Shown here piece by piece: positions 5,339 to 44,973 of a stretch of 64,000 nucleotides of DNA. The first letter of the stretch is position 1. Each line of letters starts with the position of its first letter. Source of the stretch: Halovenus carboxidivorans (GTDB taxonomy: Archaea; Halobacteriota; Halobacteria; Halobacteriales; Haloarculaceae); assembly GCF_009831575.1 (NCBI RefSeq), contig NZ_WUUT01000003.1, forward strand, positions 62,001-126,000, written 5' to 3'. Below the pieces are notes generated by a model. The model saw only the letters and a program-made list of their open reading frames with translations. It did not search any database and was not told where the DNA came from. A program made the position numbers and the translations under genes.

Positions 5339-5339
5339 C

Positions 5340-5966: not shown

Positions 5967-6126
5967 ACCACAGCAGGCCCCCGACGTGGCTCTCCAAGCG
6001 GGTCCGTCTCTGCGTCACACTGCCCCCGCTACGAGCGTACACAGGGTGTCGAGAACCGCGGCGACGACGAGTCCGACACCCTCCCCGACGGCGACTCAGT
6101 CAAACGCGGCGCTCAGTGCGAGACGG

Positions 6127-6570: not shown

Positions 6571-6606
6571 ACCGGAGGGTGGAGGCGGACGAACAAAATG
6601 GTACGC

Positions 6607-6987: not shown

Positions 6988-7077
6988 ACGCCATTATGTT
7001 CTACCAGTGTCACTAAACTGTGGCGGTTCCTCCGAGACAACGACGGATTTTTGCCGCTCGGCCGCGCTCGCGGAGAT

Positions 7078-8052: not shown

Positions 8053-8065
8053 GCCCCCGCCGGGA

Positions 8066-8073
8066 CTTTTATA
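8066..8073 (+). promoter_or_regulatory. TATA box of the FtsZ-like gene
   Basis: CTTTTATA lies 22-29 bases before ATG 8095, the spacing of a leaderless haloarchaeal promoter. It sits in the short gap after purM, so this gene can be transcribed independently. Confidence 0.6.
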
Positions 8074-8094
8074 CTGCGGTCGTCAACGACGGGT

Positions 8095-9417
8095 ATGCAC
8101 GTCGCGGCCATCGGAGTCGGGGGCGCGGGCGGACGGATCGTCGACCGGCTCGCTCGGGATCTAGGGACGGGAACGGACGCACCGCTCACCGCCGTCCACG
8201 CGATCGATACTGACACGGAGACACTCGCGTCACTCGGTGCAGTTCCGAGGGAGAATCGCCACACGGTCGGACAGTTCGAGACCGGCGGCGCGGGGACCGA
8301 CGGCGACCGGAAGTTGGCGGCTGATATCGTCGATGAGGAGCGCATGGAGATCCGCCGCGCCGTCGAGGACGGGATTCCCACGACCGTCGACGCAATCGTC
8401 GTCGCGGCCGGACTGGCCGGCGGCACCGGATCGGCGGTGGCTCCGGCGCTGGCCGGCGGATTCGACCGGGTGTACGAACAGCCAGTCTACGCCGTTTCGG
8501 TCCTCCCCTCGGAGAGCGAGACCGACGACCGAGGGCGGGAGAACACCGCTCGCGGACTGACAGCGCTGAACGACGCCGCGACGGCACAGATCGTCTTCGA
8601 CAACGACGCCTGGCTCCCCGCGGAGCAGTCTCTGGAGGCGCACAGCGACACGCTCAACGCCGAACTGGTCGACCGTCTCGGTCATCTGCTCACGGTCAGT
8701 CAGGAGACCGACGGGGCCGTCGGTGAGCGCGTCGTCGACACCCGGGATATTATGGGGACGCTCGACGGCGGGGGGCTCGTCTCGCTGGGGTACGCGAGCC
8801 GTTCGATCGCGGCCTGGCGCGGCGATAGCTCCCTGCTGGACGGGCTGAAACGGCGAGTTCTCGGTGACGACACCGACGAGGTGGAACGCGGGCGGGCAGT
8901 GCAGCGAACACTTTCGTGGGCGACGAGAGGGACGCTGACCTTCGAGTCGCCGCGGAGCGGGGCCACGCGCGGACTGCTCGTCTTCCGCGGTCCGCCGGAG
9001 TGGCTCCGCGGCGACGCCATCTCGAAGGGCCGGGAGTGGTTCGCCGACCGGACGGGGATCGAACAGCTCCGAAGCGGTGACTGTCCGGTCTCGGGAGCCG
9101 ACACGCTCGATGTCCTCGTCGTCCTCGCGGGCATCGAGAACGCCCCGCGTATCGAGGCGTTCAGTCTGGACTCCGGCTCCTCCGATCCCAACGCCGACCA
9201 CGCGGGGGACGAGGACGCGCCAGAGGACAGTGACGCGACGGAGGGCGGCGACACGGCGGGAGATGAACAGGGAGGCGAGCGTGACAGCGAGGGCTCCGGG
9301 GTGCAGTCGGAGCCCGACGACGACGGTACGGCGACCGGATCCGACGCGGAGGGAGGATCCGTCGATAATCCTCCCACCGAGGTCGGTTCCGTTACTGAGG
9401 ATCGTGACAACGAATAA
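8095..9417 (+). CDS. Divergent FtsZ/tubulin-superfamily protein with acidic tail
   Basis: A 440-residue protein. The N-terminus IGVGGAGGRIVD matches the first nucleotide-binding loop of FtsZ/CetZ. GLAGGTGSA (106-114) corresponds to the tubulin signature GGGTGSG with substitutions. A later DTRDIM segment is in the place of the T7 catalytic loop. From about residue 360 the chain is a low-complexity Asp/Glu/Ser/Gly tail. It fits neither canonical FtsZ1/FtsZ2 nor CetZ well and looks like one of the non-canonical archaeal FtsZ-like proteins. GTP binding is likely; polymerisation and role are unknown. Confidence 0.75.
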   Translation: MHVAAIGVGGAGGRIVDRLARDLGTGTDAPLTAVHAIDTDTETLASLGAVPRENRHTVGQFETGGAGTDGDRKLAADIVDEERMEIRRAVEDGIPTTVDAIVVAAGLAGGTGSAVAPALAGGFDRVYEQPVYAVSVLPSESETDDRGRENTARGLTALNDAATAQIVFDNDAWLPAEQSLEAHSDTLNAELVDRLGHLLTVSQETDGAVGERVVDTRDIMGTLDGGGLVSLGYASRSIAAWRGDSSLLDGLKRRVLGDDTDEVERGRAVQRTLSWATRGTLTFESPRSGATRGLLVFRGPPEWLRGDAISKGREWFADRTGIEQLRSGDCPVSGADTLDVLVVLAGIENAPRIEAFSLDSGSSDPNADHAGDEDAPEDSDATEGGDTAGDEQGGERDSEGSGVQSEPDDDGTATGSDAEGGSVDNPPTEVGSVTEDRDNE

Positions 9418-9486
9418 CCGTCGTTTCGGCCGCGATAGCGGTGCTTATGTAGGCGGGAGCCGAACCGCCAGCCGAGCGACTCCATC

Positions 9487-10404
9487 GTGATCCACGGAGC
9501 AGAGTTACAGCCGGTCGAGGGGCCGGCCAGGCACGGCGTCCGGGGACTGCCGGCGGAGGAGCCGACAATCGTCAGCGTGAGCGATATCCACGGCTTCATC
9601 CGGGAGGGACGCAGCGCCCTGCTCACGCTGTCGGACCACCCCGAGTACGATCCCATCGTCGAGACCGGCCGGCTCCGACGGCTCGAGTGGGTCGGCGGCG
9701 ACGAGTACGTCCTCGTCGTCAACGGCGACCTGATCGACCGTGGCGCCCACAGCGACAAGGTGCTGGAGACGGTCGAACGACTCGCGGAACAGGCTCCGCC
9801 CGGTCACGTCCGCGTCACCCTCGGCAACCACGAGATGGGGATGCTGACGCCCGATTTCTTCGAGTGGGGTGACTGGTACTCGATGTCCCGAACCGACGAC
9901 CAGCGCCGGGAGTTCGCCCGGGCAATCGAGGATGGCCACGTCGTCGCCGCGTACGACGGCTACAACGTGACCTACGCCCACGCCGGGCAGCCGGAGCCGT
10001 ACGAGACGCCCGCCCTCAACGAGGAGCTTCGGGCCGGGGCGACATACCTCGCCGAGGGGATCGGACAGACGGACGACCCCGACCGCCAGCGCGAACTCGT
10101 CGTCGAGTATCCGGCGGTCTACGGCGTCGACGGCGGAACTGGCCGCGGGCCGAACGCCGGCATCGCGTGGCTCGACTTCGAGCACATGCCGGCCGACGCT
10201 CCGCCCCAGGTCGTCGGGCACACCCGTCAGACCCGTCCGGTTCGACGCGGGAACGTCGTCTGTGAAAATGTTATCAGAGGGAATAGACGGAGCGACGGCG
10301 GCGAAGCGGTCGTCGTCGAGACACCGGACGGACTGTCGGCGCTGGCTCGGACCCCCGACGACACCGTCAGCGAACGCGAGTTCTCCCTTCCCGTGCTGGA
10401 GTGA
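9487..10404 (+). CDS. Metallophosphoesterase, PPP-type phosphatase
   Basis: A 305-residue enzyme starting with GTG. The calcineurin-like set is complete: SDIHG (about 33-37), GDLIDRG, LGNHEMG, and a C-terminal GHTRQT. The GDxxDRG plus GNHE pattern is that of PPP Ser/Thr phosphatases and related diadenosine tetraphosphatases, using two divalent metals. The substrate is unknown. It lies 69 bases after the FtsZ-like gene. Confidence 0.85.
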   Translation: MIHGAELQPVEGPARHGVRGLPAEEPTIVSVSDIHGFIREGRSALLTLSDHPEYDPIVETGRLRRLEWVGGDEYVLVVNGDLIDRGAHSDKVLETVERLAEQAPPGHVRVTLGNHEMGMLTPDFFEWGDWYSMSRTDDQRREFARAIEDGHVVAAYDGYNVTYAHAGQPEPYETPALNEELRAGATYLAEGIGQTDDPDRQRELVVEYPAVYGVDGGTGRGPNAGIAWLDFEHMPADAPPQVVGHTRQTRPVRRGNVVCENVIRGNRRSDGGEAVVVETPDGLSALARTPDDTVSEREFSLPVLE

Positions 10405-10429
10405 TCCCCTCCCTGCGACGGCCGCCTCG

Positions 10430-10990
10430 TTACTCGTCGGTGTCGGCTTCGGATTTCTTGCGTGCGATATCTGCTTCGGTGATGATCCCGACGATTTCGC
10501 TGTCCTCCTTGACGAGGACGGCGTCGTTGTGATCGAGCGAACTCTCGATGTCGGCGATGGTGTCGTCCGGTTCGACGGTCGTCGTCGACTCGTTCATGAC
10601 CTCGGCGACGGGCAGTTCACCGACGTTCTCCTCGGACTGCTGGCGGATGCTCGACATGCTGATGAGCCCGAGCGGCGCGCCGTCTCTGATCACCGGGAGC
10701 TGTGAGTAGCCCTTCTCGTCCATCAGCTCCGTCGTCTCGCGGACGCTCGCGTCTGGTTCGACGCTGACGACCGGCGAGTGCATCAGCTCCGCCGCGTGGA
10801 GCAGTCCGCCCTCGGCCTCCTGTAAGGCGTTGACGATCCGGCGCAGCGTCGAGAGCCGCGGATCGACATCGCCGCCTTCGATCCGAGCGATCAGCGGCTG
10901 AGAGACGTCCGCCCGCTCGGCGAGGTCGCTCTGGGTCAGCCCCAACTCGTTTCGCCGCTCCCGGAGATCCTCCGGTGTCGGTAAGTCCAT
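10430..10990 (-). CDS. HTH (XRE) regulator with two CBS domains
   Basis: A 186-residue protein. An XRE-type helix-turn-helix fills about residues 5-55 (LGLTQSDLAERADVSQ, then IARIEGG). Two CBS domains follow: about 68-120 (ELMHSPVVSV ... YSQLPVI) and 127-180 (EVMNESTTTV ... IVGIITEADIA). CBS pairs usually sense adenosine nucleotides or SAM, so this is probably a ligand-controlled transcription regulator. The architecture is common in archaea; its targets are unknown. Confidence 0.88.
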   Translation of the reverse strand: MDLPTPEDLRERRNELGLTQSDLAERADVSQPLIARIEGGDVDPRLSTLRRIVNALQEAEGGLLHAAELMHSPVVSVEPDASVRETTELMDEKGYSQLPVIRDGAPLGLISMSSIRQQSEENVGELPVAEVMNESTTTVEPDDTIADIESSLDHNDAVLVKEDSEIVGIITEADIARKKSEADTDE

Positions 10991-11036
10991 ACGAACAATA
11001 ACCTGAAGTAATACAAAAAAGCTCCGGGAGCGGCAG

Positions 11037-11405
11037 TTACTCCGCCTCGGCGTCGGCTCTGTCGTCCTCGAACTCCTCGGTCGCGACGATTTTCAGCGGT
11101 ACGTCCCGGAGCGCCCCCCCGATATCGCTTTTCGCGATCCGTTTCGCGTGTTCGACACTCTCCGCGTTGAACACCTTCATCTCGAGTTGGAGGCCGACGA
11201 GCGACGTATCGGCGGCGATAAACGCCGAATCGAACGGCTCTCCACAGGCCGGACAGTCCGTCAGTCCGACCTCGACCTCGACGTAGTCCATGTCCTCTTC
11301 GTTGAGTCGTTTCCCCGCTTCACTCACTGCGACACCGATTGCGTCGTCGACGTTATCGACATCGTGTACCAACCAAGCGGCTTCCAACCAGACGCGGTAG
11401 TTCAT
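11037..11405 (-). CDS. UPF0212/DUF555 family protein
   Basis: A 122-residue protein beginning [11 protein letters not shown], with a conserved CPACGEPF motif (a probable metal-binding Cys pair) and an ending [12 protein letters not shown] that fits DUF555/UPF0212. The open frame reaches up to 11504, but family members start at this Met, so I placed the start at 11405; the 33 residues above it look like untranslated sequence. Function unknown. Confidence 0.82.
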
Positions 11406-11633
11406 ATTTACACCGTGACGCTGGCCATACTCGTCTTTTTTGATTTCGTACGACCGCCGTTCACGGCGCACCCTTTCCGAATTATCGCTATAACTTATGG
11501 CCATGTCCCGGCTGTCGTACTCCTCGATTACGCGGTACTCCGGCCGACTTCGTTATATATAATAATTAATAATCTTGAAAGGGGAAAACCGCAAGACGTA
11601 GGCGGGGTTGATCGGCTCGTCGCCGGCCGAAGA

Positions 11634-11641
11634 TTTATATA
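11634..11641 (+). promoter_or_regulatory. TATA box upstream of the small gene and psmB
   Basis: TTTATATA lies 31-38 bases before ATG 11672, on the edge of a strongly AT-rich stretch (about 11553-11580). A purine-rich GAGGTGA at 11655-11661 could serve as a ribosome site if transcription starts early enough. Confidence 0.5.
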
Positions 11642-11671
11642 CGTTCGTCGGCGGAGAGGTGAGTGAGGACG

Positions 11672-11836
11672 ATGGAACGACTCCACCGATTCACACTGCT
11701 CGTCGCGTACCAGCTCACTCTCATGGCCGGCATCCTGCTGTTGCCGGTCGCACTGCTCACCGAACGGTTCGGCTTCCGACTCCCGATCGATCGGGCGGTC
11801 ACGGGGCTCAAACAGCGCTACGAGCGGACGGTCTAA
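11672..11836 (+). CDS. Small conserved-looking membrane protein upstream of psmB
   Basis: An ORF of 54 residues with one strongly hydrophobic segment (about residues 8-29) between basic ends: MERLHRFTLLV at the start and ALKQRYERTV-like basic tail at the end (LKQRYERTV). It has its own TATA box and typical codon use. The gap to the proteasome gene is 38 bases. Tiny haloarchaeal proteins of this shape exist, but I cannot assign a role. Confidence 0.5.
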   Translation: MERLHRFTLLVAYQLTLMAGILLLPVALLTERFGFRLPIDRAVTGLKQRYERTV

Positions 11837-11874
11837 CAGTAGTTTCTTACGTGCGTGTGCGGTAGCCGTAGGTA

Positions 11875-12588
11875 ATGGAACCCACCGCCGATTCACAGTT
11901 CTCGCTCGGACAGCACACCGAACGGTTCGATACCGACCCCACGGAGCCGGAACTCGGTTCGCTTCCCGCCGGTGACCGCGAGGAGGAGGCGGTCAACAAG
12001 ACCGGAACGACGACGATCGGCATCGCGACCGACAACGGCGTCGTCGTGGCGACGGACATGCGAGCCAGCCTCGGCGGCCGGTTCGTCTCGAACAAGAACG
12101 TCCAGAAGGTCGAGCAGATCCACCCGACGGCGGCGCTGACGCTGGTCGGCTCCGTCGGCGGCGCGCAGTCGTTCATCCGGACGATCCGCGCCGAGGCGAA
12201 TCTCTACGAAGCGCGCCGCGGCAGGCAGATGAGCATTCAGGCGCTGGCGACGCTGGCTGGGAACTTCGCCCGCGGCGGCCCGTTTCTGGCGATCAACCCG
12301 ATCCTGGGCGGCGTCGACGACGAGGGCAGCCACGTCTACAGCATCGACCCCGCCGGCGGCGTCATGAAAGACGACTACACCGTCACCGGTTCCGGCCTCA
12401 CCGTCGCGTACGGGACCCTGGAAGACCGCTACGAGCCGGATCTCTCCCTCGAAGAGGCGCGGTCGACCGCCGCCGCCGCCATCGAGGCCGCGGCCGAGCG
12501 AGACACCGGTTCCGGTAACGGCATCTACGTCGCCGAGGTGACCGAGGAGGGCGTCGATATCGACGACTACGAACTCGGCGAGATCTGA
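11875..12588 (+). CDS. psmB: Proteasome beta subunit
   Basis: A 237-residue 20S proteasome beta subunit. The propeptide should be cut between G44 and T45 in NKTGTTTIG, freeing the N-terminal Thr nucleophile. Further family marks are ATDMRASLGG (with the structural Asp), SVGGAQSF, PILGGVDDEG and SGLTVAYGTLE. It assembles with alpha subunits (encoded elsewhere) into the degradative barrel. The acidic tail and long propeptide are typical for haloarchaea. Confidence 0.97.
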   Translation: MEPTADSQFSLGQHTERFDTDPTEPELGSLPAGDREEEAVNKTGTTTIGIATDNGVVVATDMRASLGGRFVSNKNVQKVEQIHPTAALTLVGSVGGAQSFIRTIRAEANLYEARRGRQMSIQALATLAGNFARGGPFLAINPILGGVDDEGSHVYSIDPAGGVMKDDYTVTGSGLTVAYGTLEDRYEPDLSLEEARSTAAAAIEAAAERDTGSGNGIYVAEVTEEGVDIDDYELGEI

Positions 12589-12654
12589 GCGTCTGACGGG
12601 AGTCAGCCGACTGGCTGACGTGGCTTCTTGTAGCTGTCTCCGCAACGGCTCTGT

Positions 12655-12918
12655 ATGGACGAACTCACGCTTCGCCTCCCAGCGGAGACCACAGCGGCGC
12701 TGCGCTCGGAGGCGGACGAACGAGGGGTCACAGTCGAGGAACATCTGCGGGATATCATCGACGCGTACCACGCCGACGAGCAACGACGGCCGGCCAGGGC
12801 CGTCGAGTACGTCCACGCCGTCGGTACCGAGGCGACGGCTCTCTCGGACGGCGAACCGGACAACTCCGAGGAGATCGGTTCGTTCAGATACGGGTCGCGG
12901 TCGGTCCTCTCGCAGTGA
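12655..12918 (+). CDS. Small ribbon-helix-helix-like protein
   Basis: An 87-residue protein. The first 45 residues (MDELTLRLPAETTAAL, then GVTVEEHLRDIID) have the strand-helix-helix pattern of RHH DNA-binding domains of the CopG/Arc type. The rest is polar and low complexity. RHH assignment is by pattern only. It lies between psmB and the SLC13 permease, which it might regulate, though nothing in the sequence proves that. Confidence 0.6.
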   Translation: MDELTLRLPAETTAALRSEADERGVTVEEHLRDIIDAYHADEQRRPARAVEYVHAVGTEATALSDGEPDNSEEIGSFRYGSRSVLSQ

Positions 12919-12971
12919 ATCCCGTACGTACCACGTGGTTTTTTCATCGTACTGTGACTGCTGGACTGTAG

Positions 12972-14828
12972 ATGGACTCGGTCGTCCTCGCCCAGACTGG
13001 AGACATCCCGCCGCTCACGCCCGAGATACTGCTTCTGTTTGTCATTATCGGGGTCGCGCTCGTGCTGTTCGTCATCGAACCCGTCCCCATCGATATCGTC
13101 GCTGTCGGGGTCCTCGTGAGCCTGATCGTCCTGGAGCCGTGGACGGGCGTCGATCCCGAGACCGGCGTCAGCGGCTTCGCGAGTCCGGCGACGCTGACCG
13201 TGCTGGCGATGTTCGTCATCAGCGAGGGGATCCGCCGGACGGGGCTGATCAACATCATCGGCAACGAAATCGCGGAACGGTACGGATCGAGCCAGTACAA
13301 ACAACTGCTCGCCGTCCTCGGACTCTCCGGGGGGACGGCGGGCTTTATCAACAACACGCCGGTCGTCGCGGTGATGATCCCGATGGTGAACACCCTCTCG
13401 GAGCGCACCGGAATCTCCCCCTCGAAGCTTCTCATCCCGGTCTCGTACGCGGCGATGCTCGGCGGGATGCTGACGCTGATCGGCACCTCGACGAACATCC
13501 TCGCCTCGGATCTCTCCGCCCGACTGATCGGCCGGCCGTTCTCGATGTTCGAGTTCACCCAACTCGGCGTGCTCGTCCTCGTGACCGGTGTCGTCTACCT
13601 CGCCACCGTCGGTCGGCTGCTGATTCCCGAGCGTATCAAGATGGGCGAGGAACTGATCGAGGAGTTCGGGATGGCGGAGTATCTCACAGAGGTGGTCGTC
13701 GCGGAGGACTCCCATCTCGTCGGCAAGACTGTCGACCAGAGCTTCGCTGAACTCGACGTCGACGCGGACGTGATCCAACTCATCCGCGACGAACAGGCCT
13801 TCACCGAACCGCTGGCCCGCAAGGAGATCCGGCCCGGTGACATTCTCGTTCTCCGGACCGATCAGGACAGCATCCTCACCTTCATCGAGACCGAAGGCCT
13901 GGATCTCGCGCCCGATGCTCCCGTCACCGACGACACGCTCCGGGCCGAGCAGGCGGGGATGGAGCCGGACGCCGAGCAGCGACTCGTCGAGATCGTCGTC
14001 TCGCCGGGGGCGTCGATCCTCGGTGGCACGCTCGAATCGTTGAGCTTCAGAGATCAGTACGACGCGACGGTGCTCGCGTTGCGCCGCGGCGGCGAGGTGA
14101 TCCACGCGCGGATGGACGAGCGCAAACTCCGCGGCGGCGATACACTGCTGGTCCAGGCCTCCGAGCGAACGATCAAACGGCTCGCCAACGACCGCGACTT
14201 CATCGTCGCACAGGAACTCACCCTCCCCGACTTCCGCTACGAGCGAATCCCGGTCGCACTCGCGATCATCGCGGCGGTCGTCGGTCTCGCCGCGCTGGAA
14301 ATTCTCCCGATTCTGGTCTCCTCGCTCGCCGGTATCGTCGCGATGGTCGCCACCGGCTGTGTCAAACCGGAGGAGGTGTACGCGTCGGTCGACTGGAGCG
14401 TGATCTTCCTGCTCGCCGGGCTGATCCCGCTCGGCGTGGCGATGGAGCGGACCGGGGCCGCCGAGTGGCTCGCCGCCGTGATTCTCGTCGCCGCGACCGG
14501 GCTCTCCGCGCCGCTCGTACTCGGCCTGTTCTATCTCTTCACCGCCCTGATCACGAACGTCGTCAGCAACAACGCCAGCGCCGTGCTGATGATCCCGGTC
14601 GCCGTCGAGGCGGCGAGCGAAATCGGGGCCGATCCGTTCGTCTTCATCCTCGCGGTGACCTTCGGCGCGTCGACGGCGATGCTCACACCGATCGGTTACC
14701 AGACGAACCTGATGGTCTACGGTCCCGGCGGGTACAAGTTCACGGACTTCATGCGCGTCGGCGCGCCGCTGCAACTGCTGCTCGCGGTCGTGACGACGGC
14801 CGGATTGGTCCTCATCTGGGGCGTGTAG
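12972..14828 (+). CDS. SLC13-family permease with two TrkA-C (RCK-C) domains
   Basis: A 618-residue transporter. The N-terminal half has five or six membrane segments, including NNTPVVAVMIPM and LIGTSTNILAS, which are ArsB/NhaD/SLC13 substrate-loop motifs. Two soluble TrkA-C-like domains occupy about residues 225-420 (LVGKTVDQSFAELD and ILGGTLESLSFRD are their starts). A second membrane half has VVSNNASAVLMIP and the repeat motif LTPIGYQTNLMV. Probably a sodium-coupled dicarboxylate, sulfate or similar anion transporter gated by ligand binding. Substrate not readable. Confidence 0.9.
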   Translation: MDSVVLAQTGDIPPLTPEILLLFVIIGVALVLFVIEPVPIDIVAVGVLVSLIVLEPWTGVDPETGVSGFASPATLTVLAMFVISEGIRRTGLINIIGNEIAERYGSSQYKQLLAVLGLSGGTAGFINNTPVVAVMIPMVNTLSERTGISPSKLLIPVSYAAMLGGMLTLIGTSTNILASDLSARLIGRPFSMFEFTQLGVLVLVTGVVYLATVGRLLIPERIKMGEELIEEFGMAEYLTEVVVAEDSHLVGKTVDQSFAELDVDADVIQLIRDEQAFTEPLARKEIRPGDILVLRTDQDSILTFIETEGLDLAPDAPVTDDTLRAEQAGMEPDAEQRLVEIVVSPGASILGGTLESLSFRDQYDATVLALRRGGEVIHARMDERKLRGGDTLLVQASERTIKRLANDRDFIVAQELTLPDFRYERIPVALAIIAAVVGLAALEILPILVSSLAGIVAMVATGCVKPEEVYASVDWSVIFLLAGLIPLGVAMERTGAAEWLAAVILVAATGLSAPLVLGLFYLFTALITNVVSNNASAVLMIPVAVEAASEIGADPFVFILAVTFGASTAMLTPIGYQTNLMVYGPGGYKFTDFMRVGAPLQLLLAVVTTAGLVLIWGV

Positions 14829-35368: not shown

Positions 35369-35800
35369 ATGAACCGGCGGGGCCAGACAGCCTACGATTA
35401 CCTCCTCGGGATCGTACTGCTGTTGGTGACGATCATCACGGTACTGTCACTGTTCCCGCAGGTGTTCGGCCCGTTCGTCGAGCCAGTCTCTTCGGATCAG
35501 GAGAAGATGGCCGACCGGGTCGCGTCCGACGTGATCGAGACGACGGCGCTCGGCGGAACCGAGCGGACGATCAACGCGAGCGAACTCGACGACCTGGCCG
35601 TCGAACAGGCGAAATCAGAGGCCGGACTCCGGGAGATCCGCAGCGTCAACGTCTCGCTTCAGCGGGGGGCTGAACCGGTCGTGGGGGCGGGTGATCGACA
35701 GCGCGACGGAGAGCCGTCGGCAGTCGTCGTCCGGACGGTACAGACCGCCGAGGGCGGCGCGTGTCGGACCGGCTGTCAACTCGTCGTGCGGGTGTGGTAA
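35369..35800 (+). CDS. Pilin-like protein 1 with class III signal-type N-terminus
   Basis: A 143-residue protein. The start MNRRGQTAYDYLLG is a prepilin-peptidase-type site (cut expected after RRG), followed by about 20 hydrophobic residues, then a polar ectodomain with N-x-S/T sequons and one Cys pair near the C-terminus (CRTGC). From memory it matches the family catalogued as DUF7287; I could not check this. Likely an accessory pilin of the adjacent ATPase/platform pair. Confidence 0.78.
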   Translation: MNRRGQTAYDYLLGIVLLLVTIITVLSLFPQVFGPFVEPVSSDQEKMADRVASDVIETTALGGTERTINASELDDLAVEQAKSEAGLREIRSVNVSLQRGAEPVVGAGDRQRDGEPSAVVVRTVQTAEGGACRTGCQLVVRVW

Positions 35801-35801
35801 G

Positions 35802-36377
35802 ATGCAACCGATGGAGCACAACCGTGGACAGGCCTACGCGCTCGAAGGAATCATCGGGGCGATTATCGTCGTCTCGGCGCTGGTGTTGGGGCTGCAGGCG
35901 GTCGATATCGCACCGTGGACCGGCAGCCAGACGCTCGATAGCTCCGAGACGCGTACCGAGGTTGCCGACATGCTGGCGGTCGCGGAGGACGCGGGCGCCC
36001 TGCAGGAGGCGGTCACCTGCGTCGACGACGACGGCGACCCCCACCCCGATGTCGCCGCGACCGAGGACAACGTCTCGGAACTCGGTGCCATCCTCAACCG
36101 GACTCTCGAAAGTCAGTACAGCTACCGGATCGCGGTCGGTGTCGACGGCACCGAGACACAGATCGGACCGACTCCGTCGCTCCCGAACACCGACACCGTG
36201 ACCGCCTCCCGGACGGTCGTCCTGTCGGATACCGATCCCGTCTACGAAGTCGACCCGCAATCAGAGCAGTGCCGACCCGCCGGCACCCTCGAAGACGCCG
36301 GTGATCTGTACATCGACGACCAGCACGGAGACGAGAGCCTCTACGCGGTGGTCCGAATCAGGGTGATCGCGTGGTGA
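35802..36377 (+). CDS. Pilin-like protein 2 with one N-terminal helix
   Basis: A 191-residue protein. HNRGQAYALEGIIGA starts a hydrophobic helix of about 20 residues directly after RG, as in archaeal prepilins, and a beta-rich ectodomain follows. Two Cys residues (TCVDDD and SEQCRP) could pair outside the cell. I chose ATG 35802, 1 base after the previous stop; ATG 35811 is an alternative. It recalls the family listed as DUF7288 (from memory). It overlaps the next gene by 7 bases. Confidence 0.75.
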   Translation: MQPMEHNRGQAYALEGIIGAIIVVSALVLGLQAVDIAPWTGSQTLDSSETRTEVADMLAVAEDAGALQEAVTCVDDDGDPHPDVAATEDNVSELGAILNRTLESQYSYRIAVGVDGTETQIGPTPSLPNTDTVTASRTVVLSDTDPVYEVDPQSEQCRPAGTLEDAGDLYIDDQHGDESLYAVVRIRVIAW

Positions 36378-37231
36378 GCCGACGCCGACAGCGGGGCCAA
36401 CTGGTCCTGATCGCGGCGATTCTGGTCGCGACGGCGGTCCTCGGTGCGGTCGTCCTGCTGAACGCGGTCCACAGTTCGCCGGACGTGAAAGCCCAGACGG
36501 ACGCACAGAGCCTCTCGACGGCAGACCGGACGGTCGGAGACATCCGACAGGATCTCAGAGACCTCTTTTTCGGGACCAACGGAACCGACGCTCAGTATCC
36601 GTTCGCGACGGCGAGTGATCTCGGAAACGCCACCGGGGCCTACAGCAGCGACCTCGCCGCGGTCGTCTCCAGGGATAGCCCCGCCGTCACCGCGGTGGAA
36701 CTGCTTCCGGCTGAGAGTACGACCGGCGGGTTCGTCTCCGGGGCGGTGCCGACCTCGAACACGTCAGTCATCGAGAACGCGAGTTCGCTCCCCTACCTCT
36801 CGATCAACGCGTCGGCCGCCGCGACTCCCCGTATCACCATCGTCCGGACGGCCGCACCGGACAGGGAAATCGTCCTCGACGGATCGAGCACCGAGTACGA
36901 CGACCGGACCGGCGACCGACGCGAGTGCGACGACATCTCCGGGCGAGCGCGGCTGGAACTGACCCGTGGCTCGGGGGCGATCCGCGGCGAAGACGGCGCT
37001 GTCTGTGAGGTGTTCGTCTACGATCCGACACAGTCGAGTGAATACGACGTGGCTATCGACGCCGCCAACGGCGACGGCCGGTTCAACGCCAGCGGGGGCG
37101 GTACTCCCGTCCTCACCGGTGACCGTCGGCACACCGGGGTCGTCGTCAACCCGACGTTCGAGGTGACCTACCGGGACCCCAGCGTCACCTACCGTGGCAA
37201 CGTCACGCTGTTCCGGGGTGATCGGCGGTGA
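36371..37231 (+). CDS. Pilin-like protein 3
   Basis: A 286-residue protein starting with GTG. SRRRQRGQLVLIAAILV gives a basic end, an RG|Q junction and a hydrophobic helix of about 20 residues. The ectodomain has many N-x-S/T sequons (NTSV, NASS, NASA, NATG) and two Cys. It recalls the family listed as DUF7261 (from memory). Overlaps with both neighbours point to translational coupling in the pil operon. No catalytic motif seen. Confidence 0.72.
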   Translation: MVSRRRQRGQLVLIAAILVATAVLGAVVLLNAVHSSPDVKAQTDAQSLSTADRTVGDIRQDLRDLFFGTNGTDAQYPFATASDLGNATGAYSSDLAAVVSRDSPAVTAVELLPAESTTGGFVSGAVPTSNTSVIENASSLPYLSINASAAATPRITIVRTAAPDREIVLDGSSTEYDDRTGDRRECDDISGRARLELTRGSGAIRGEDGAVCEVFVYDPTQSSEYDVAIDAANGDGRFNASGGGTPVLTGDRRHTGVVVNPTFEVTYRDPSVTYRGNVTLFRGDRR

Positions 37232-37677
37232 CCGACCGCGCCGTCTCGATTGCGCTCACGCACGCACTGACCGTCGCTATCTCGACGGTTCTGGTTTCGG
37301 GGTTGATAATCGGCGCCGGAACCCTGCTCGAATCCCAGGAGCAAACCGTCGGTGAGACCCAACTCAGAGAGATCGGAAGCGACGCGGTGACCTACATCAA
37401 CACGCTCGACCGGTTGAACCGAACCGGCGAGAACGTCACCGTCACCGCGGAACCGGATTATCCGGAGCGGATCCTCGGTTCGTATCGGTACACGATCGCC
37501 ATAGAGAACCGCACCGGGAGCAACACGCTGGTGGTCCGGTCCGAACAACTCGGCCGGTCCGTCGAGTTCGACATCGAAACCCGCACCAACGTCACGAGTT
37601 CGGGCACCAGCGGTGGCGACGTGGAGATCAGCCTCTGTGAGGGCGACCGACTCACGCTCGCGGGGTGTGGCTCGTGA
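37228..37677 (+). CDS. Pilin-like protein 4
   Basis: A 149-residue protein starting with GTG. TDRAVSIALTHALTVA leads into one long hydrophobic helix (about residues 5-30), then an extracellular-type domain with sequons and two C-terminal Cys (LCEGD, AGCGS). It recalls the family listed as DUF7266 (from memory). It overlaps the genes on both sides by 4 bases. Function beyond pilus assembly or accessory pilin is unknown. Confidence 0.72.
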   Translation: MTDRAVSIALTHALTVAISTVLVSGLIIGAGTLLESQEQTVGETQLREIGSDAVTYINTLDRLNRTGENVTVTAEPDYPERILGSYRYTIAIENRTGSNTLVVRSEQLGRSVEFDIETRTNVTSSGTSGGDVEISLCEGDRLTLAGCGS

Positions 37678-38534
37678 GCGATTCAGACCGGTATTCGGCA
37701 CCGACACCGAACCGCGCGGTGTCAGATGTCGTCGCCTTCGTGCTCACGTTCGCGATCATCATCGCCGGCGTAGGCCTCGTCTCCACGGGCGCATTCGACC
37801 GACTGACCGCGTTTACCGACGAACAGCGGATCGACAACGCCGAGCGCGGTATGGAAGCCGCGGCCTCGACCATCGACAGTCTCGGCCGCGGCAACGACAC
37901 CTACCGCGAGTTCGCCCTCTCGCTGAGCGGCGGGAACGTCTGGTTCAGAAACAGCACCATCACCATCGAAAACAGCAGTGCGAACCTCTCCCGTCTACCA
38001 GGCGGCAGTGCCGACAGCGCGGATATTCCGGTGAACGCGCTCGAACACCGGTTCGAGTTCGGCGGCGAGACGGTCCGGATCACACACGAGGGGGGCGGTG
38101 TCTTCCGTACCGATACGGCCCGCCCGCGATACGACCCGGCCATCACCGTCGAAGACGGCACGCTCATCGTCTCGCTGATCAACCTGACCAGCGACGAGAC
38201 AATCGACCGCTCGGGAACGTACGACAGTAATCTCGCCCTCGACCCGACCGGCGTTCCGACGGAGGCACCGGTCTCCGCGGACAAACAGTTCGTCAGTTTC
38301 AGCGCGGAACTGATCGGCCAGCGGCGAGTCTACAACTCGACGGTCGACGACCCCGATATCACCGTCGACGTTTCCGCGTCTGCGAGCCCCGAACAGTGGG
38401 GGTATTTTTTCAGCGAGGCGGAGGGCTGGACCTCGACCGGCGACGCGACGTACACGCCCGACGAGCGGATCGACACCGTCCTGATCCGGGTCTCGACGAT
38501 CCGGCTCTCGACGCCGCCGCGGCGGACGACGTGA
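37674..38534 (+). CDS. Pilin-like protein 5, paralogue of the giant protein's N-terminus
   Basis: A 286-residue protein starting at GTG 37674. After SAPTPNRAVSDVVAF comes a hydrophobic helix (about 18-42), then a helical stretch and a beta ectodomain. HEGGGVF (138-144) followed by ITVEDGTLIVSLINLTS, and a later EQWGYFFSEAEGW (W242), line up with YQGGGVF, VSEGNLDLDFVNLSS and DGWGALVREAVES in the 2077-residue protein downstream. The two are therefore paralogous. It recalls DUF7289 (from memory, unchecked). It is the last of the overlapping small genes; a 205-base gap with a promoter follows. Confidence 0.75.
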   Translation: MSDSDRYSAPTPNRAVSDVVAFVLTFAIIIAGVGLVSTGAFDRLTAFTDEQRIDNAERGMEAAASTIDSLGRGNDTYREFALSLSGGNVWFRNSTITIENSSANLSRLPGGSADSADIPVNALEHRFEFGGETVRITHEGGGVFRTDTARPRYDPAITVEDGTLIVSLINLTSDETIDRSGTYDSNLALDPTGVPTEAPVSADKQFVSFSAELIGQRRVYNSTVDDPDITVDVSASASPEQWGYFFSEAEGWTSTGDATYTPDERIDTVLIRVSTIRLSTPPRRTT

Positions 38535-38704: not shown

Positions 38705-38713
38705 TTTTTTAAA
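38705..38713 (+). promoter_or_regulatory. TATA box of the giant adhesin gene
   Basis: TTTTTTAAA lies 27-35 bases before ATG 38740. The gene therefore has its own leaderless-type promoter although it ends the pil gene row. The 38535-38700 stretch in front is AT-richer than its surroundings and contains no ORF I can support. Confidence 0.6.
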
Positions 38714-38739
38714 CGGGTGTTCCGTTGTATGCCGTAATC

Positions 38740-41700
38740 ATGAGGGCCCCGTTGGATCCGACGGACACTCGCGGAATCTCCGAGATCTACGGGACAGTCC
38801 TCATCATCTCGCTGGTCTTTCTCGTCGCCTTCTCCCTCGTCGGCGTCGGTGTGTTCATTCTCGGCGACACGACGGCCGACGCGAACGACCGACTCGCACA
38901 GGACGCGGTCCTCGAACTGGACGACCGGGTGAGCGCTCTCACGGCGGATCGCGTCGAGAACTCGATCACCTGGGAGGTCCCACAGGGCACCGCCGAGGAT
39001 TTCGAGGCCAACGGAACGCGGGGCACGATTAACGTCACCGTACGGACGAACGATACGTACTGGACCTGGGGGAACTCCAGCGGGTTAGTCGACTCGCCCG
39101 TCCAGGCGAACGCCACGGGTGAGATCCCGCTGGGAACGATCACCCACCGGAGCGAAGACGGCGTCCTGACGGTGTATCAGGGCGGGGGCGTCTTCGAGAT
39201 CCAGGACGGCACGGTGACCGTGTTGCGCGAGCCGGAGATCTCCGTCTCGGAGGGGAATCTCGATCTCGATTTCGTCAACCTCTCGTCGGTGGATCAGATC
39301 GACGGCAGCGAGTTGACTGCGACACAGCGCCGGACCCAACCCGACTCCGCCGAGATCCAGCAGATCGTGGACGCCCAGATGCGCCGGGACGGGAACCTCG
39401 TCGCCCCGGCCAGGGTGAATCTCACGATCACGAGCGAGTTCGCCGACGGCTGGGGCGCTCTCGTCCGGGAGGCGGTCGAGAGCCGTCCCGTCACGGTCTG
39501 GGATCACACCGACCTCCCGGAACTGGCGACGAACCAGGTCAAGATCGGCTTCGGTGAGTTCGGACGGGGCGTCGATCTCCCCGACGAGCGTAGCCCCTAC
39601 GCTCCCGGAGTGATCTACAGCGGCGTCGCCGACCTCGCGCCCGAACTGTACAACTGGAGCGCCGGGACGATTCGCGAGCGCGCCGGTGGCTTCAACGTCA
39701 GCGCGAACGGCGGCAACGAGTACACCGTCGGCCTCAGGTACGACCACGACGGGGACGGCGCCGACTGGTGGAAACTCAACGCGAGCAATCAGTGGGTGAA
39801 CATCGAGGACCCCATGGCCGCGCCGCTGGGGCCGGACGAACCCCGTCCCGTCAGCGTCGACCCCGCGAACGGCGTCTTCAGGATGGATGACGACGCCTGG
39901 ACGTGTGTCGTCAGTCACGCTCCCAGCGCCTCGGAGCCGCTGCGGTCACAGGTCAACCGGACGGGGAGTGGCTGTTTCGTCGACCCGGTCGGCGTCGAGA
40001 ATCCCGACGACAGCGTTGCCGAGTTCAGTCCCCTGCTCGAAATCACTGGCCTGAGCGTACGCGGCCCCGCGAGCAAACAACTGGCCTTCGGTACCGACCG
40101 CCTCCAGGTGGCGGTAAACGTCACGAACACCGGAACGGGCGATGCGGACAGCGGAGAGCCGACTGCCATGCTTGCCGATCCGGACGGCGGCGATCCGTGG
40201 GTCGCCGACGGAACCCGACTGAACGCCAGCAGCCCGTTGTCTCGCGGTGAATCGGCCACGTACTCGTTCAGCTACACGCCGCAGTTCCTCGGTGATCGAT
40301 TCCGGGTCCGCGCCGGCACTCCCGACGACGCTGCCGGAAACGACACGTGGTGGGAGATCACGAAGACGCCGGACGCCGAGCCGTTCGAGATCGAACGCGT
40401 CACCGTCCGCAACAGTCCCATCGTCGCCGGCGACGTCCTCAAAGTCGATGTCACGGTCAACAACACCGGTGACAGCCGAGACGAACAGACAGTCATCCTC
40501 TCGGACCGTGCGGGGCCACAGGCGACCGCGACGTACAACCTCAGCGCGGGTACCGAACGGACGAAGACCATCGAGTGGGACACCGAGGTCGGGGACGGGA
40601 ACCGTAGCAACAAGTCGATCAATATCTCGACGCTGACCGACCGCGAGTCAGCGACGGCGATCATCCGCAAGCCGGGACTGGCGTCGGCCGACTTCGAGAT
40701 CGACCGCGTCGAGATCGACGATCCGGTCACCGAGGGCAACGACCTCGAAGCCGAGGCGACGATCACCAACGACGGCAGCGACACGGGCACGCGGACCGTC
40801 CGTCTGCGAGACGACAACGGCGTGATCCGCGCGACCGTCCCCGATCTGACGCTCGATCCCGGCGAAACCGTCACCCTCGGCAGTTCGGCACCGCCGCTGG
40901 TCTGGGAGACCGATACGGGCGATACCGGCGTCTACGATCTGACCGTGGAGACCGACGACGACACCAACACGACGACCGACGTGGAGATCACGACACCGAC
41001 CGGCGTCGGGACGTTCAACGTCTCGATTGCCGAGAGCGGCCTCGACGACGTGATCGCCGGCGACGACCTCGAAGTCCCGGTCACTATCGAGTACAACGGC
41101 GGCGGAACGCGGACCGAGAGCATCTGGTTGACCGATTTCGACGGCGAACCGGTCGACGCACGGACCGTCTCACTGACCAGCGGGAGTTCCGTGCGCCGGA
41201 CGCTCGTCTGGGAGACCGAGGCCGGAGACGGACAGCACGCCCCCGGAACGATCACGGCAAACGGTGTCGACGACACAGACAGCGCGAGCGTCGAGGTCCG
41301 ACCGGAGGACGAGGCGGGTCCGAGTTACACCATCACGTCGGTTTCGACGAACAGCTCAGTCGGCTCGAACGGATCGCTACCGCCCGATCCGACGACGGAG
41401 GGCGAGGATCTGGAGATCAACGTGACCGTCGAGAACAGCGGCACCGTCCTCGGGACCGAGAGCGTCGTCGTCGAGTACGTGCCGGAGGACCGCCCGGTCG
41501 CTACGAGGGAGGTGAGCATCCCCAGCGGGGCCAGCAAGACTGTCACCCTCACCTGGGAGACAGTGGTCGGCGACAACACGACGACGCCGTCTAATCCACG
41601 GAACGCCGAAGACATCGAAATCCGAGTTGCCGGCGAAACAGCCCGCGAGACGGTCTTTATCGACAACCGAACCGTGCGGCGCGATCCGGTCGACGTGATG

Positions 41701-44700
41701 TTCGCCATCGACGAAACCGGCTCGATGGGCGTGCCGGCCGCGTACTCCCGGAGCGGGATGGAGCCGACGCCACAGCTCACCCTGGGCGCCCAAGCCACTG
41801 GAGACAGCTACGAATCGAACGACGAACTCGGGGCTGCCGCATCGATTCCCACCGGGACATACGCCGATCTCCTGATCGCAAACGGGGAGAGTGATTACTT
41901 CGCCGTCACGCTCAACGAAACCGAGTCACTCGACGCCGCGATCGGCTTCGACGACGACGCCGGCAACCTCGAACTCGAACTGTACGGCCCGACCCAGCGG
42001 CTTCTGGACAGCAGTCGCTCCTCCGGCGAGGGCGAATCTGTCTCGGTGTCGGACGTGACCGAGGCTGGCACGTACTACGTCCGTGTCTACGGCGACGGGA
42101 CTGACTCCGCAGAGTACGACCTGTTCGTTCAGTCCGGGGACAGGTCAAACGACGACTACGAGCCGAACGACGATATCGGGGCGGCACAGCCGCTCGGAAG
42201 CGGGGAGTATCGGGATCTGCGGATCGCCAACGCCGAGAGCGACTTCTTCGCCGTCTCGCTGAACGACAGCGAGTCCCTGCGCGGTTCGATCGACTTCGAC
42301 AACGACATCGGCGATCTCGACCTGGTGCTGTACGATCCGGAGGGCGACCTGATCGACGCCGGGTACGGCTCGGAGAGCGAATCTGTCTCCGTCTCGAACG
42401 TGAGCGAGGCCGGAACCTACTATCTCAGGGTTTACGGAGACGACGGCGCCTCCGCACCGTACGCCCTCGACATCGAGACCGGTAGATCCGTCTCCGACGA
42501 GCGGTTCTCGTACGACTCCCCCCTGTTCGAGGAGCCGGTCACTCCAGCGGGTGAGGAGTTCCTCTACGTCAGACAGCGAAACGAGATCTACGAACAGGGC
42601 GAGCAGTTCGACATCCCGTACCGCTACCGCTCGAAGGTCTGGCCGGGCAAGCGGCTCACGAACGCGACCGACGTTCCAGCGGAGGCAGATCTGTGGTACG
42701 CACTCCCCGAAACTGGCGGCGACGTCTCCGGCGAGGTCGAAAACCCCGGTACCGAAGGGACGTTCTACGTCTCCGGACAGACCGTCGATCCGGCAGACCA
42801 CGGCGGAGCGGCCTACGTCGTCAATCTCAGCGACCGGTACTGTTCGGCGCTCTGTTACGACAGCACCGGCCAGCGGTACGACGCCGTCCTCGCGGCACTG
42901 AGCAGTCTGAGCCAACCGCTCGGCGATCGGGCGGGACTGTTGGAGTTCAACCTGAGCCAGAACGTCTACCAACCACTGACGAACAACCTCTCCGCAGTCG
43001 AGCAGTCCCTCCGGGTCAATCCCGGCGGCGGCACGGACATCACGAACGCCATCCTCGAAGCCCAGGAACAACTCAACCGGACCGCCGACCCGAACCGGAA
43101 GGCAATCGTGTTGCTCACCGACGGGGAGCACAACGCGCGGGACGTGGCGCCGCCGAGCGAGCGGGTGGACGAGATTGCCGACAACGTGACAGTCTACGTC
43201 GTCGGTTTCGGCAGCGCAGACACCAGCTCCGACGGTGAACTCGCGACCGTTGCCAATGCCGGGACCGGGGAGGGCAAACTGTACGACGGCAACGACGACG
43301 ATCTCGAAGAGATCTTCGCTCAGATCGGCGAGGAACTGGACGAACCCGACCTGCCGAACGTGCAGGTGAACACCGACAGCACCCTCCAGGTCAAGGAAGG
43401 GGAGACGCTTCAGGTCCCCGTCGGCGTCGAAAACACCGGCGCGGGCGGCGAACGGATCATCACGGTGACCGATATCTACGGCAATATCGTCGACAGCACG
43501 ACTGTGTCACTGGCCGCGGGCGAGCGGATCAACGCCAGTGACCCGGCCGCGCCGGTGCTCGAATGGGACGCCGACCTGCAGGGCGAGGAGCCACCGACCA
43601 GCGGCGAACTGCTCGTCCGGACGCCGAGCAGCGAGGCGACGCCGAACGTGACCGTCACGGAGGGCGATCCCTCGGAGTTCGCCGTCACGATCCAGAGCGT
43701 CACACCGACCGACCCGCAGGCGACCGACGAGATCAACGTGACGGCCAGGATCGAGAACCGACTACCCGGCCCGGATACGCAGACCGTCGTGCTACGCGAC
43801 GACGAGGGCAACCCTGTCGACGTTCAGACGGTGCGTCTCGACGGCGCTGACGGCCCCAACAGCGCGACGACGACCAGTTTCACGTGGAAGACCCGTCCGG
43901 GTGACTCCGGAACCGGACAGACCCTCACCGTCGAGAGCGACGACACCGCCGATACGACCACGGTCGACATCGACCGCGCCCCCGGCGCGGACGACCAGTT
44001 CGACGTCGAAATCACCGGCACGACCGCCCCGACCCTCGCCGGAAACGAGACCGACGTCGAGGTGCGCGTCGAGAACGTCGGCTCCGATCCCGGCCAGCAG
44101 TTCGTCGAACTCCGGAACTTCGACAACAACACGGTCGATCTCGTCGAGACGCGGACGCTGAGCCCCGGCGGGACCGAAACGTACACACTGACGTGGAACA
44201 CCACTGTCGGCGACGCCGGTACCGGCAACGTCTACGCGGTCACACGGGACGACGCCGACGGCGAGGCGGTGACGATCCGCCAGGTGACCGGGCCGAACTC
44301 GACGTTCGAGATCGTCGACGCTGATGCGGTCAACAGCACGGTAACCGCGGGCGATCCCGTCGAGATCACGGCGGAGATCGAGAACACCGGCGTCGATCCG
44401 GACAGCCAGTTCGTCGAGGCGACCTTCGACACCGTGACCAAGACAGCGAACATCTCCGACCTCGATCCGGGGGCTCGGAGTACTGTTACTTTCCAGTTCG
44501 GGACGGCGACCGGTGCTGTCAACTCCTCGCAGACGTTCGATATCGATCTCGAAACCGAAGACGACAACGAGACGGTGTCGGTGACGGTCGAGCCGGCGGG
44601 TGCGCCGCTGCAGGTCGACATCGTGGGGACGGGCGATCCGGTCCGAGCCGGCGAGGCTCTGCCGGTGACGGTCGAGGTGACGGGATTGGACTCGACCAGC

Positions 44701-44973
44701 ACCCTCTCGCTCGAAACGCCGTACGGCGGAGCCCTCAACCCGACGAATATCACGACGATCAGGAGTAACGGAACATACACGATCACGTGGCCGACGCTGC
44801 CCGGACAGGGCGATCCGAACCCGCAGTCCGTCGTCGCTCGCGTGCGCGGGAGGACGAGCGATCCCGCGGCCGTACGCGTCGAGGAGGCTCCCGAGGGTGA
44901 TGTCGTCGCCCCCGGGACCGGTCCGAGCGCGGATCCGGTCGGGATCGATATCGACGAGATCGAGATCAACTGA
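38740..44973 (+). CDS. Giant pilin-like adhesin: CARDB repeats, split VWA domain, PPC pair
   Basis: A 2077-residue secreted protein. TRGISEIYGTVLIISL is a class III signal-type start with one hydrophobic helix (about 13-42). Residues to about 330 resemble the preceding pilin-like protein. Five CARDB-like Ig repeats follow (about 450-975, with NVTVxNxG strands). A VWA domain starts at about 985 with metal motif DETGS (D991, T993, S995). It is interrupted by two PPC-like domains (about 1022-1127 and 1138-1247) and a 120-residue spacer. It resumes at about 1370 with GGGTDIT (T1432) and LLTDGEHN (D1461), ending near 1535. Five more CARDB-like repeats fill the C-terminus. There is no C-terminal anchor. 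Glycosylation sequons abound. Likely a pilus-tethered adhesin; function inferred. Confidence 0.82.
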   Translation: MRAPLDPTDTRGISEIYGTVLIISLVFLVAFSLVGVGVFILGDTTADANDRLAQDAVLELDDRVSALTADRVENSITWEVPQGTAEDFEANGTRGTINVTVRTNDTYWTWGNSSGLVDSPVQANATGEIPLGTITHRSEDGVLTVYQGGGVFEIQDGTVTVLREPEISVSEGNLDLDFVNLSSVDQIDGSELTATQRRTQPDSAEIQQIVDAQMRRDGNLVAPARVNLTITSEFADGWGALVREAVESRPVTVWDHTDLPELATNQVKIGFGEFGRGVDLPDERSPYAPGVIYSGVADLAPELYNWSAGTIRERAGGFNVSANGGNEYTVGLRYDHDGDGADWWKLNASNQWVNIEDPMAAPLGPDEPRPVSVDPANGVFRMDDDAWTCVVSHAPSASEPLRSQVNRTGSGCFVDPVGVENPDDSVAEFSPLLEITGLSVRGPASKQLAFGTDRLQVAVNVTNTGTGDADSGEPTAMLADPDGGDPWVADGTRLNASSPLSRGESATYSFSYTPQFLGDRFRVRAGTPDDAAGNDTWWEITKTPDAEPFEIERVTVRNSPIVAGDVLKVDVTVNNTGDSRDEQTVILSDRAGPQATATYNLSAGTERTKTIEWDTEVGDGNRSNKSINISTLTDRESATAIIRKPGLASADFEIDRVEIDDPVTEGNDLEAEATITNDGSDTGTRTVRLRDDNGVIRATVPDLTLDPGETVTLGSSAPPLVWETDTGDTGVYDLTVETDDDTNTTTDVEITTPTGVGTFNVSIAESGLDDVIAGDDLEVPVTIEYNGGGTRTESIWLTDFDGEPVDARTVSLTSGSSVRRTLVWETEAGDGQHAPGTITANGVDDTDSASVEVRPEDEAGPSYTITSVSTNSSVGSNGSLPPDPTTEGEDLEINVTVENSGTVLGTESVVVEYVPEDRPVATREVSIPSGASKTVTLTWETVVGDNTTTPSNPRNAEDIEIRVAGETARETVFIDNRTVRRDPVDVMFAIDETGSMGVPAAYSRSGMEPTPQLTLGAQATGDSYESNDELGAAASIPTGTYADLLIANGESDYFAVTLNETESLDAAIGFDDDAGNLELELYGPTQRLLDSSRSSGEGESVSVSDVTEAGTYYVRVYGDGTDSAEYDLFVQSGDRSNDDYEPNDDIGAAQPLGSGEYRDLRIANAESDFFAVSLNDSESLRGSIDFDNDIGDLDLVLYDPEGDLIDAGYGSESESVSVSNVSEAGTYYLRVYGDDGASAPYALDIETGRSVSDERFSYDSPLFEEPVTPAGEEFLYVRQRNEIYEQGEQFDIPYRYRSKVWPGKRLTNATDVPAEADLWYALPETGGDVSGEVENPGTEGTFYVSGQTVDPADHGGAAYVVNLSDRYCSALCYDSTGQRYDAVLAALSSLSQPLGDRAGLLEFNLSQNVYQPLTNNLSAVEQSLRVNPGGGTDITNAILEAQEQLNRTADPNRKAIVLLTDGEHNARDVAPPSERVDEIADNVTVYVVGFGSADTSSDGELATVANAGTGEGKLYDGNDDDLEEIFAQIGEELDEPDLPNVQVNTDSTLQVKEGETLQVPVGVENTGAGGERIITVTDIYGNIVDSTTVSLAAGERINASDPAAPVLEWDADLQGEEPPTSGELLVRTPSSEATPNVTVTEGDPSEFAVTIQSVTPTDPQATDEINVTARIENRLPGPDTQTVVLRDDEGNPVDVQTVRLDGADGPNSATTTSFTWKTRPGDSGTGQTLTVESDDTADTTTVDIDRAPGADDQFDVEITGTTAPTLAGNETDVEVRVENVGSDPGQQFVELRNFDNNTVDLVETRTLSPGGTETYTLTWNTTVGDAGTGNVYAVTRDDADGEAVTIRQVTGPNSTFEIVDADAVNSTVTAGDPVEITAEIENTGVDPDSQFVEATFDTVTKTANISDLDPGARSTVTFQFGTATGAVNSSQTFDIDLETEDDNETVSVTVEPAGAPLQVDIVGTGDPVRAGEALPVTVEVTGLDSTSTLSLETPYGGALNPTNITTIRSNGTYTITWPTLPGQGDPNPQSVVARVRGRTSDPAAVRVEEAPEGDVVAPGTGPSADPVGIDIDEIEIN

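Follow-up and report, generated by a model that had tools for sequence, protein, structure and literature searches.

Modular type IV pilins are a described class of bacterial proteins, the most extreme case given being 860 residues long (PMC8179133). PilB (pilin plus VWA domain) and PilC (pilin plus lectin) of Streptococcus sanguinis (Raynaud et al. 2021, PMC8179133) are the precedents for the protein described here, which is encoded in a stretch of 64,000 nucleotides of Halovenus carboxidivorans (contig NZ_WUUT01000003.1 of assembly GCF_009831575.1, positions 62,001 to 126,000). This whole stretch is called the window below, and coordinates are counted from its first letter. The gene lies behind a pilus gene cassette and its product, the giant, has 2077 amino acids (aa). 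For archaea, the 2016 pilus census predicts other adhesins, none of them like the giant in the accessible part of its text (PMC4858521). In the accessible part of the literature searched, no tip adhesin is characterised for archaeal type IV pili and no archaeal modular pilin is described. A first-pass annotation of the window had likewise named no described archaeal system of such design. This stands for archaea within that literature, while bacterial modular pilins clearly precede the giant (PMC8179133).

We read the giant as a hairpin-built modular minor pilin of a type IV pilus driven by the adjacent PilB and PilC, with an exchangeable head and most likely placed at the tip, and give this reading a probability of about 0.64. 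It builds on computed observations, namely the domain identities, the recurrent gene context, the split VWA domain, the tail motif, the paired arms and the variable heads.

Domain architecture of the giant

The first-pass annotation had described a protein of 2077 residues with a prepilin-type N-terminus, a single hydrophobic helix, CARDB-like immunoglobulin (Ig) repeats, a VWA domain, PPC-like domains, many N-glycosylation sequons and no C-terminal anchor. Most of this description held. The open reading frame runs from its ATG to its stop codon at the full length, R11-G12/I13-S14 fits the PibD-type sites of Haloferax pilins, which include RAVS (PMC4371748), and this class III leader is followed by one hydrophobic helix. 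Residues 13-43 are the single strongly hydrophobic segment, and a hydrophobicity scan of the giant found no second comparable one, C-terminus included. Sequons of the N-X-S/T type number 48, whereas shuffled sequences of equal composition have 17.6 +/- 3.8, and 17.9% of the residues are acidic and 5.7% basic. Pfam confirmed all three domain families (CARDB E 2e-24, VWA 4e-11, PPC 3e-10), but the PPC domains turned out to lie inside the VWA domain and not beside it. An anchor is indeed lacking, yet the C-terminus is not featureless, as it forms a strand conserved throughout the family. The giant thereby joins a pilin module to domains not specific to pilus biology (CARDB, VWA and PPC), the combination that distinguishes modular pilins.

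The N-terminal domain shares 26% identity with the neighbouring DUF7289 pilin (BLASTP, E 1e-8), and the orthologues L055, L052, L037 and L040 as well as shorter homologues pass the Pfam cut-off for DUF7289. A family profile built from 17 DUF7289-type domains was run against 177,635 PDB sequences; its first six matches are archaeal pilins or archaellins, led by Natrinema PilA2 (8gi2, E 8e-4), although much of this signal may be due to the N-terminal helix. Judged by homology, the N-terminal domain of the giant is a pilin. The genome encodes one candidate A24 prepilin peptidase.

A final strand apparently separated from its pilin domain

A strand-like motif ends large and short members of the family alike. 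With a tail profile derived from 64 distinct ordinary DUF7289 C-termini, the last residues of the giant rank 1 among 2068 positions. The profile ranks first at the tail in 6 of 27 members, and the combined p of 4e-13 over all 27 is too optimistic because the members are related and several rank low. In addition, most large members match the Pfam DUF7289 model only up to about position 208-230 of 238. Since the tail matches the strand with which ordinary DUF7289 pilins end, the payload appears to be inserted within the pilin fold.

The AlphaFold model of the homologue L083 (790 aa, pilin plus VWA) is confident at about residues 50-262 and its last ten residues reach a predicted local distance difference test (pLDDT) score of 91, while residues 264-774 between the pilin domain and the tail mostly score under 60. 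A lone strand can hardly score 91 without neighbours, which suggests that the tail docks on the pilin domain. Foldseek and VIA searches with this 790-aa model gave no clear fold match; as over half of the model is of low confidence, the missing match says nothing on the pilin fold. A single VIA row (4n7v, L083 residues 91..790) gives a hint of a tail within the sheet but is too weak to rely on.

A VWA head split beside its metal site

In the VWA domain of the giant, about 380 residues separate the first strand (D991-E-T993-G-S995) from helix 1, which starts at about residue 1378. This insertion holds two PPC domains (~1021-1255) and about 120 further residues with Cys1368 and Cys1372. The metal ion-dependent adhesion site (MIDAS) is complete nonetheless, with D991, T993, S995, T1432 and D1461 supplying the D-x-S/T-x-S, T and D elements. 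Insert length in relatives ranges from 0 to about 150 residues: the VWA domain of the Halovenus salina orthologue (L062) is contiguous and lacks the insertion, L033 and L055 have inserts of roughly 100 residues, and L031, which is 61% identical to the giant, has a shorter insert without PPC domains.

The two PPC domains are tandem duplicates, in stretches 73-80% identical at the DNA level. Residues 975-1545 were modelled with AlphaFold (pLDDT 55 overall) and compared with intact VWA domains; model residues 9..562 matched with Z 19.2 and 2.4 Å over 168 residues. With the VWA-region model as query, Foldseek gave as its top match the tandem collagen-binding domain of ColG, which covers the PPC-sized part. 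Taken together, the alignment and the model match place the insertion beside the metal site, as is the case for the arms of S. sanguinis PilB and of RrgA (PMC8179133).

Matched arms and exchangeable heads

Ig repeats before and after the head were counted with an iterated repeat model. The counts are 5/5 in the giant and in L031, 4/5 in L062 and L033, 2/3 in L055, 6/6 in L035 and 4/4 in L144 (each with one repeat apart), 4/4 in L036, 5/4 in L037 and L044, 3/2 in L052 and L057 and 2/2 in L054, while Haloarcula-type members mostly have 4/3. Across 12 lineages the two counts (2-6 repeats) never differ by more than one (r 0.83, permutation p 0.0009, or 0.0003 with alternative counting). Each of the two arms differs by two repeats between H. 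salina and H. rubra. Moreover, a head of 240 aa that is preceded by four and followed by three Ig repeats in members of 1260-1377 aa recurs without any Ig arms in three members that are 500-530 aa long, where it occupies residues ~256-505 directly between the pilin domain (~7-245) and the tail.

From the sequences compared, the two Ig arms around a head thus seem to be acquired and lost together. A linear stalk offers no reason for this, whereas a hairpin that starts and finishes in the pilin domain does. The very long stalk of about 2000 residues proposed by the first-pass annotation therefore probably needs revision: a pilin-type protein of the adjacent pilus system with adhesin-type domains stands, but the evidence favours a hairpin over the linear form, and such a hairpin, with the head at its apex, would have roughly half the reach. 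Going by typical Ig size, a stalk of two five-Ig arms would measure, very roughly, 20 nm.

The payload carried on the pilin base varies. VWA payloads occur in the giant, L031, L062, L033, L055, L036 and L054 (in L031, L033 and L036 by sequence) and GLUG repeats in L035, L037, L044, L052 and L057. Other members carry DUF7305 with TSP3 and VWA (L130), DUF7308 (L107 and L046) or PKD with VWA (L079); the 240-aa head, which has no Pfam match, is a further type. In L079 (Halapricum sp., ~9137-13062) the DUF7289-type start (152 aa) and the PKD/VWA payload (1180 aa) occupy adjacent frames with a second DUF7287/7288 set behind them, and the split is possibly a frameshift or a sequencing error.

A second pilin set is found elsewhere in the genome of H. 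carboxidivorans (L165, C4:172000-190000). At 3892-9135 it comprises DUF7287, DUF7288, DUF7266 and a short DUF7289-type pilin, together with a convergent DUF7289-type protein of 651 aa that ends in the same tail motif; the stretch examined contains neither PilB nor PilC. At 9154-11463 follows a protein of 769 aa whose N-terminus is of the PilA type (RAVSPVIGAVLMIAITV) and which has two Ig repeats like those of the giant; by its sequence it is a putative second kind of modular archaeal pilin.

Genomic context of the giant

The position behind a pilus ATPase/platform pair and five small pilin-like genes, as first annotated, was borne out by Pfam (Table 1), and 205 bp separate the last of these genes from the giant. 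Halovenus-type genomes, including H. salina and H. rubra, encode an orthologue of 1150-1870 aa after the cassette in unchanged order. In L035, from a neighbouring genus, the cassette is kept next to a protein of 2267 aa but its pilin genes are inverted. In GTDB genomes, a search based on a PilC alignment yielded 80 named loci, 65 of them with an identifiable DUF7289 gene; an earlier contig scan with the N-terminal 452 aa as query had given no matches, and the PilC query was used instead. At 30 of the 65 loci a DUF7289-type protein of 463-1827 aa lies within 0.8 kb of the cassette DUF7289 gene, mostly in convergent orientation, and at 7 the sequence ends too early to judge. In genera related to Halovenus, the cassette is thus adjoined by forms shorter than the giant. 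Homologues consistently distant from any pilus ATPase, which the first-pass annotation would have taken as refutation, are thus not what these loci and the Halovenus-type genomes show.

Table 1 Features of the giant and of the adjacent pilus cassette in the window.
Feature	Residues (aa)	Window coordinates	Strand	Evidence
PilB3-like assembly ATPase, 903 aa		30519..33230	+	T2SSE 2e-31, PilB3_C above cut-off
PilC-like platform, 704 aa		33227..35341	+	two T2SSF stretches, E 2e-31
Pilin-like DUF7287		35369..35800	+	Pfam
Pilin-like DUF7288		35811..36377	+	Pfam
Pilin-like DUF7261		36371..37231	+	Pfam
Pilin-like DUF7266		37228..37677	+	Pfam
Ordinary DUF7289 pilin, 289 aa, homologous to both ends of the giant		37665..38534	+	Pfam, BLASTP, tail profile
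TATA-like element TTTTTTAAAC, ~30 nt 5' of ATG		38705..38714	+	consensus reading
Giant modular pilin (candidate), 2077 aa	1-2077	38740..44973	+	open reading frame, Pfam, orthologues
Prepilin leader, hydrophobic helix, DUF7289-type pilin domain	1-260	38740..39519	+	BLASTP, orthologue Pfam, profile
Conserved region of Halovenus-type giants only, Cys389/Cys412	261-430	39520..40029	+	consensus; without Pfam match
N-side arm, five CARDB-like Ig repeats of 103-115 aa plus linker	431-984	40030..41691	+	Pfam, repeat model
VWA first strand, MIDAS D991-x-T993-x-S995	985-1000	41692..41739	+	alignment, model
VWA insertion at MIDAS face	1001-1377	41740..42870	+	orthologue comparison, Pfam, fold match
VWA remainder, MIDAS T1432 and D1461	1378-1534	42871..43341	+	Pfam, alignment, structure match
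C-side arm, five CARDB-like Ig repeats of 101-107 aa	1538-2058	43351..44913	+	repeat model
C-terminal strand PVGIDIDEIEIN, proposed last pilin-fold strand	2066-2077	44935..44970	+	tail profile, L083 model

The TATA-like element upstream of the giant gene suggests a leaderless transcript of its own, and similar A+T-rich elements precede several orthologues. A promoter and terminator scan 3' of the gene found nothing, and a search of a plasmid collection returned only partial matches.

Among the cassettes, those of L074 and L086-L127, mainly Natrialbaceae loci, have an ATPase frame of about 1150-1470 aa, compared with about 770-900 aa in Haloarculaceae-type loci. Five Haloarcula contigs (L061, L067, L068, L071 and L073) stop 1.6-2.3 kb past the cassette at a near-identical place, which suggests a repeat there, perhaps rRNA. 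Frames of 800-980 aa with a complete DUF7289 match in five genomes were considered as fusions and rejected: the pilin domain sits at their C-terminal end, so that they look like upstream extensions of GC-rich open frames.

Proposed mechanism and competing explanations

In the mechanism we propose, the single A24 prepilin peptidase would cut after G12 and the adjacent PilB and PilC would assemble the giant, its helix entering the base of the growing filament. The last strand would then fold back and complete the pilin domain, with the two Ig arms lying next to each other and the VWA/PPC head projecting. Since the filament body offers too little room for so bulky a payload, the giant would most likely cap the pilus tip, as has been argued for S. 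sanguinis PilB. There the metal site may bind a surface, a polymer or a cell, and the inserted domains may tune its specificity.

Several points weigh against this hairpin-built tip pilin. The giant itself has no Pfam match to DUF7289 (PF23960) up to E 0.1, and its sequence is best taken as that of a distant relative below the reach of the model. Both AlphaFold models are partial (mean pLDDT 54 and 55), docking of the L083 tail on the pilin domain is deduced indirectly from confidence values, and tip position and adhesion are inferred by analogy. The 12 lineages used for the arm counts are an author-chosen list of related genomes and therefore not fully independent. Large DUF7289-type neighbours are absent from 28 of the 65 loci, all with sufficient flank and mainly from Natrialbaceae, and the DUF7289-type proteins of L040, L043 and L044 lie away from any cassette. 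The cassette association is strong within the relevant families, yet not universal.

Homologues with no cassette nearby would also suit a membrane-held receptor, perhaps an adhesin or a contact sensor, that is processed or exported like a pilin but keeps its helix in the membrane, so that the Ig hairpin lifts the VWA head through the S-layer without any filament. Haloarchaea possess an S-layer, which such a receptor must span by a stalk, and the TATA-like element suggests separate expression. However, a mere anchor needs neither the recurrent position at the cassette end nor a pilin domain with a preserved final strand, and we consider the receptor unlikely. A stand-alone S-layer-type protein was dropped because the cassette neighbourhood recurs.

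If S. sanguinis PilB, in which the VWA module is attached behind the pilin module (PMC8179133), is the better guide, the giant would be a linear modular pilin, with the pilin at the base, repeats and VWA as one extended chain and a tail for dimerisation or for binding the S-layer or other pilins. Matched arm numbers and a 240-aa head without arms in short members are hard to reconcile with such a chain, as are DUF7289 matches that stop short, the tail profile and the confident L083 tail; even granting that tail docking rests on confidence values and not on coordinates, we regard it as distinctly improbable. Lower still we place a minor pilin that primes or regulates assembly, starting or limiting it or reporting tension with the VWA as mechanosensor. 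Its heads, exchangeable and variable in length, and the variable insert on the MIDAS side look like a changing choice of ligand, although tip minor pilins do prime assembly in other systems (PMC10191384) and the accessible part of the literature links bacterial VWA-bearing pilus proteins to surface sensing.

Comparison with known systems

Two other kinds of pilus adhesin were tried as identities for the giant and rejected. RrgA, the tip adhesin of the pneumococcal sortase pilus (PMC8179133), shares a VWA domain with arms beside the MIDAS but belongs to an unrelated, sortase-assembled pilus; the giant has no C-terminal LPxTG with membrane helix and no hydrophobic segment at its C-terminus. Given the lack of a sortase-type end, an internal LPETG at aa 1322 (~42703), also found in the orthologue L031, probably arose by chance. 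PilY1/PilC1 are likewise large tip adhesins, with a VWA domain in some members, but they are not pilins and carry a beta-propeller. Pfam gave no PilC beta-propeller match in the giant, whose C-terminal half consists of Ig repeats.

Within archaea, a close counterpart is the minor pilin arCOG02911 from the PilB4-type pilus of euryarchaea (Makarova et al. 2016, PMC4858521), which probably belongs to the same family as DUF7289. According to the accessible part of that paper, its length varies between about 250 and 550 aa, and like the giant it belongs to a haloarchaeal cassette with its own pilin set and an ATPase with extra N- and C-terminal parts. Neither a VWA domain nor Ig arms nor lengths above ~550 aa are described there. 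GspK, the tip pseudopilin of type II secretion (PMC8179133), resembles the giant in its tip position and in having an extra domain within the pilin beta-sheet. That domain is small and alpha-helical, however, without Ig arms or VWA, and part of a secretion pseudopilus.

With S. sanguinis PilB the giant shares the class III leader, the VWA domain with MIDAS, insertions beside it (the 'arms' of PilB) and the proposed role of tip adhesin, and with modular type IV pilins in general the many interchangeable modules (PMC8179133). It differs in being archaeal, in its 2077 aa against the 860-residue extreme, and in a payload that apparently precedes the last pilin strand on matched Ig arms and does not follow the pilin domain. 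Relative to known modular pilins the new element would be the hairpin, and proteins of the giant's type are apparently undescribed in archaea. We hold it slightly more probable than not that they form a distinct haloarchaeal class of tip proteins with a constant pilin base: ahead of its final strand the fold is opened by one Ig arm, a swappable head and a second arm of matched repeat number, and the terminal residues close it again. For the question of how archaeal pili select their binding targets, the family of the giant offers a testable candidate that occurs in dozens of haloarchaeal species, including cultured Halovenus salina, Haloarcula, Halorhabdus and Natronomonas, with the paired Ig arms as a sharp structural prediction. 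If it is true, archaea opened the pilin fold to insert large variable heads and so made modular pilin adhesins, a development parallel to that of the bacterial VWA pilus adhesins.

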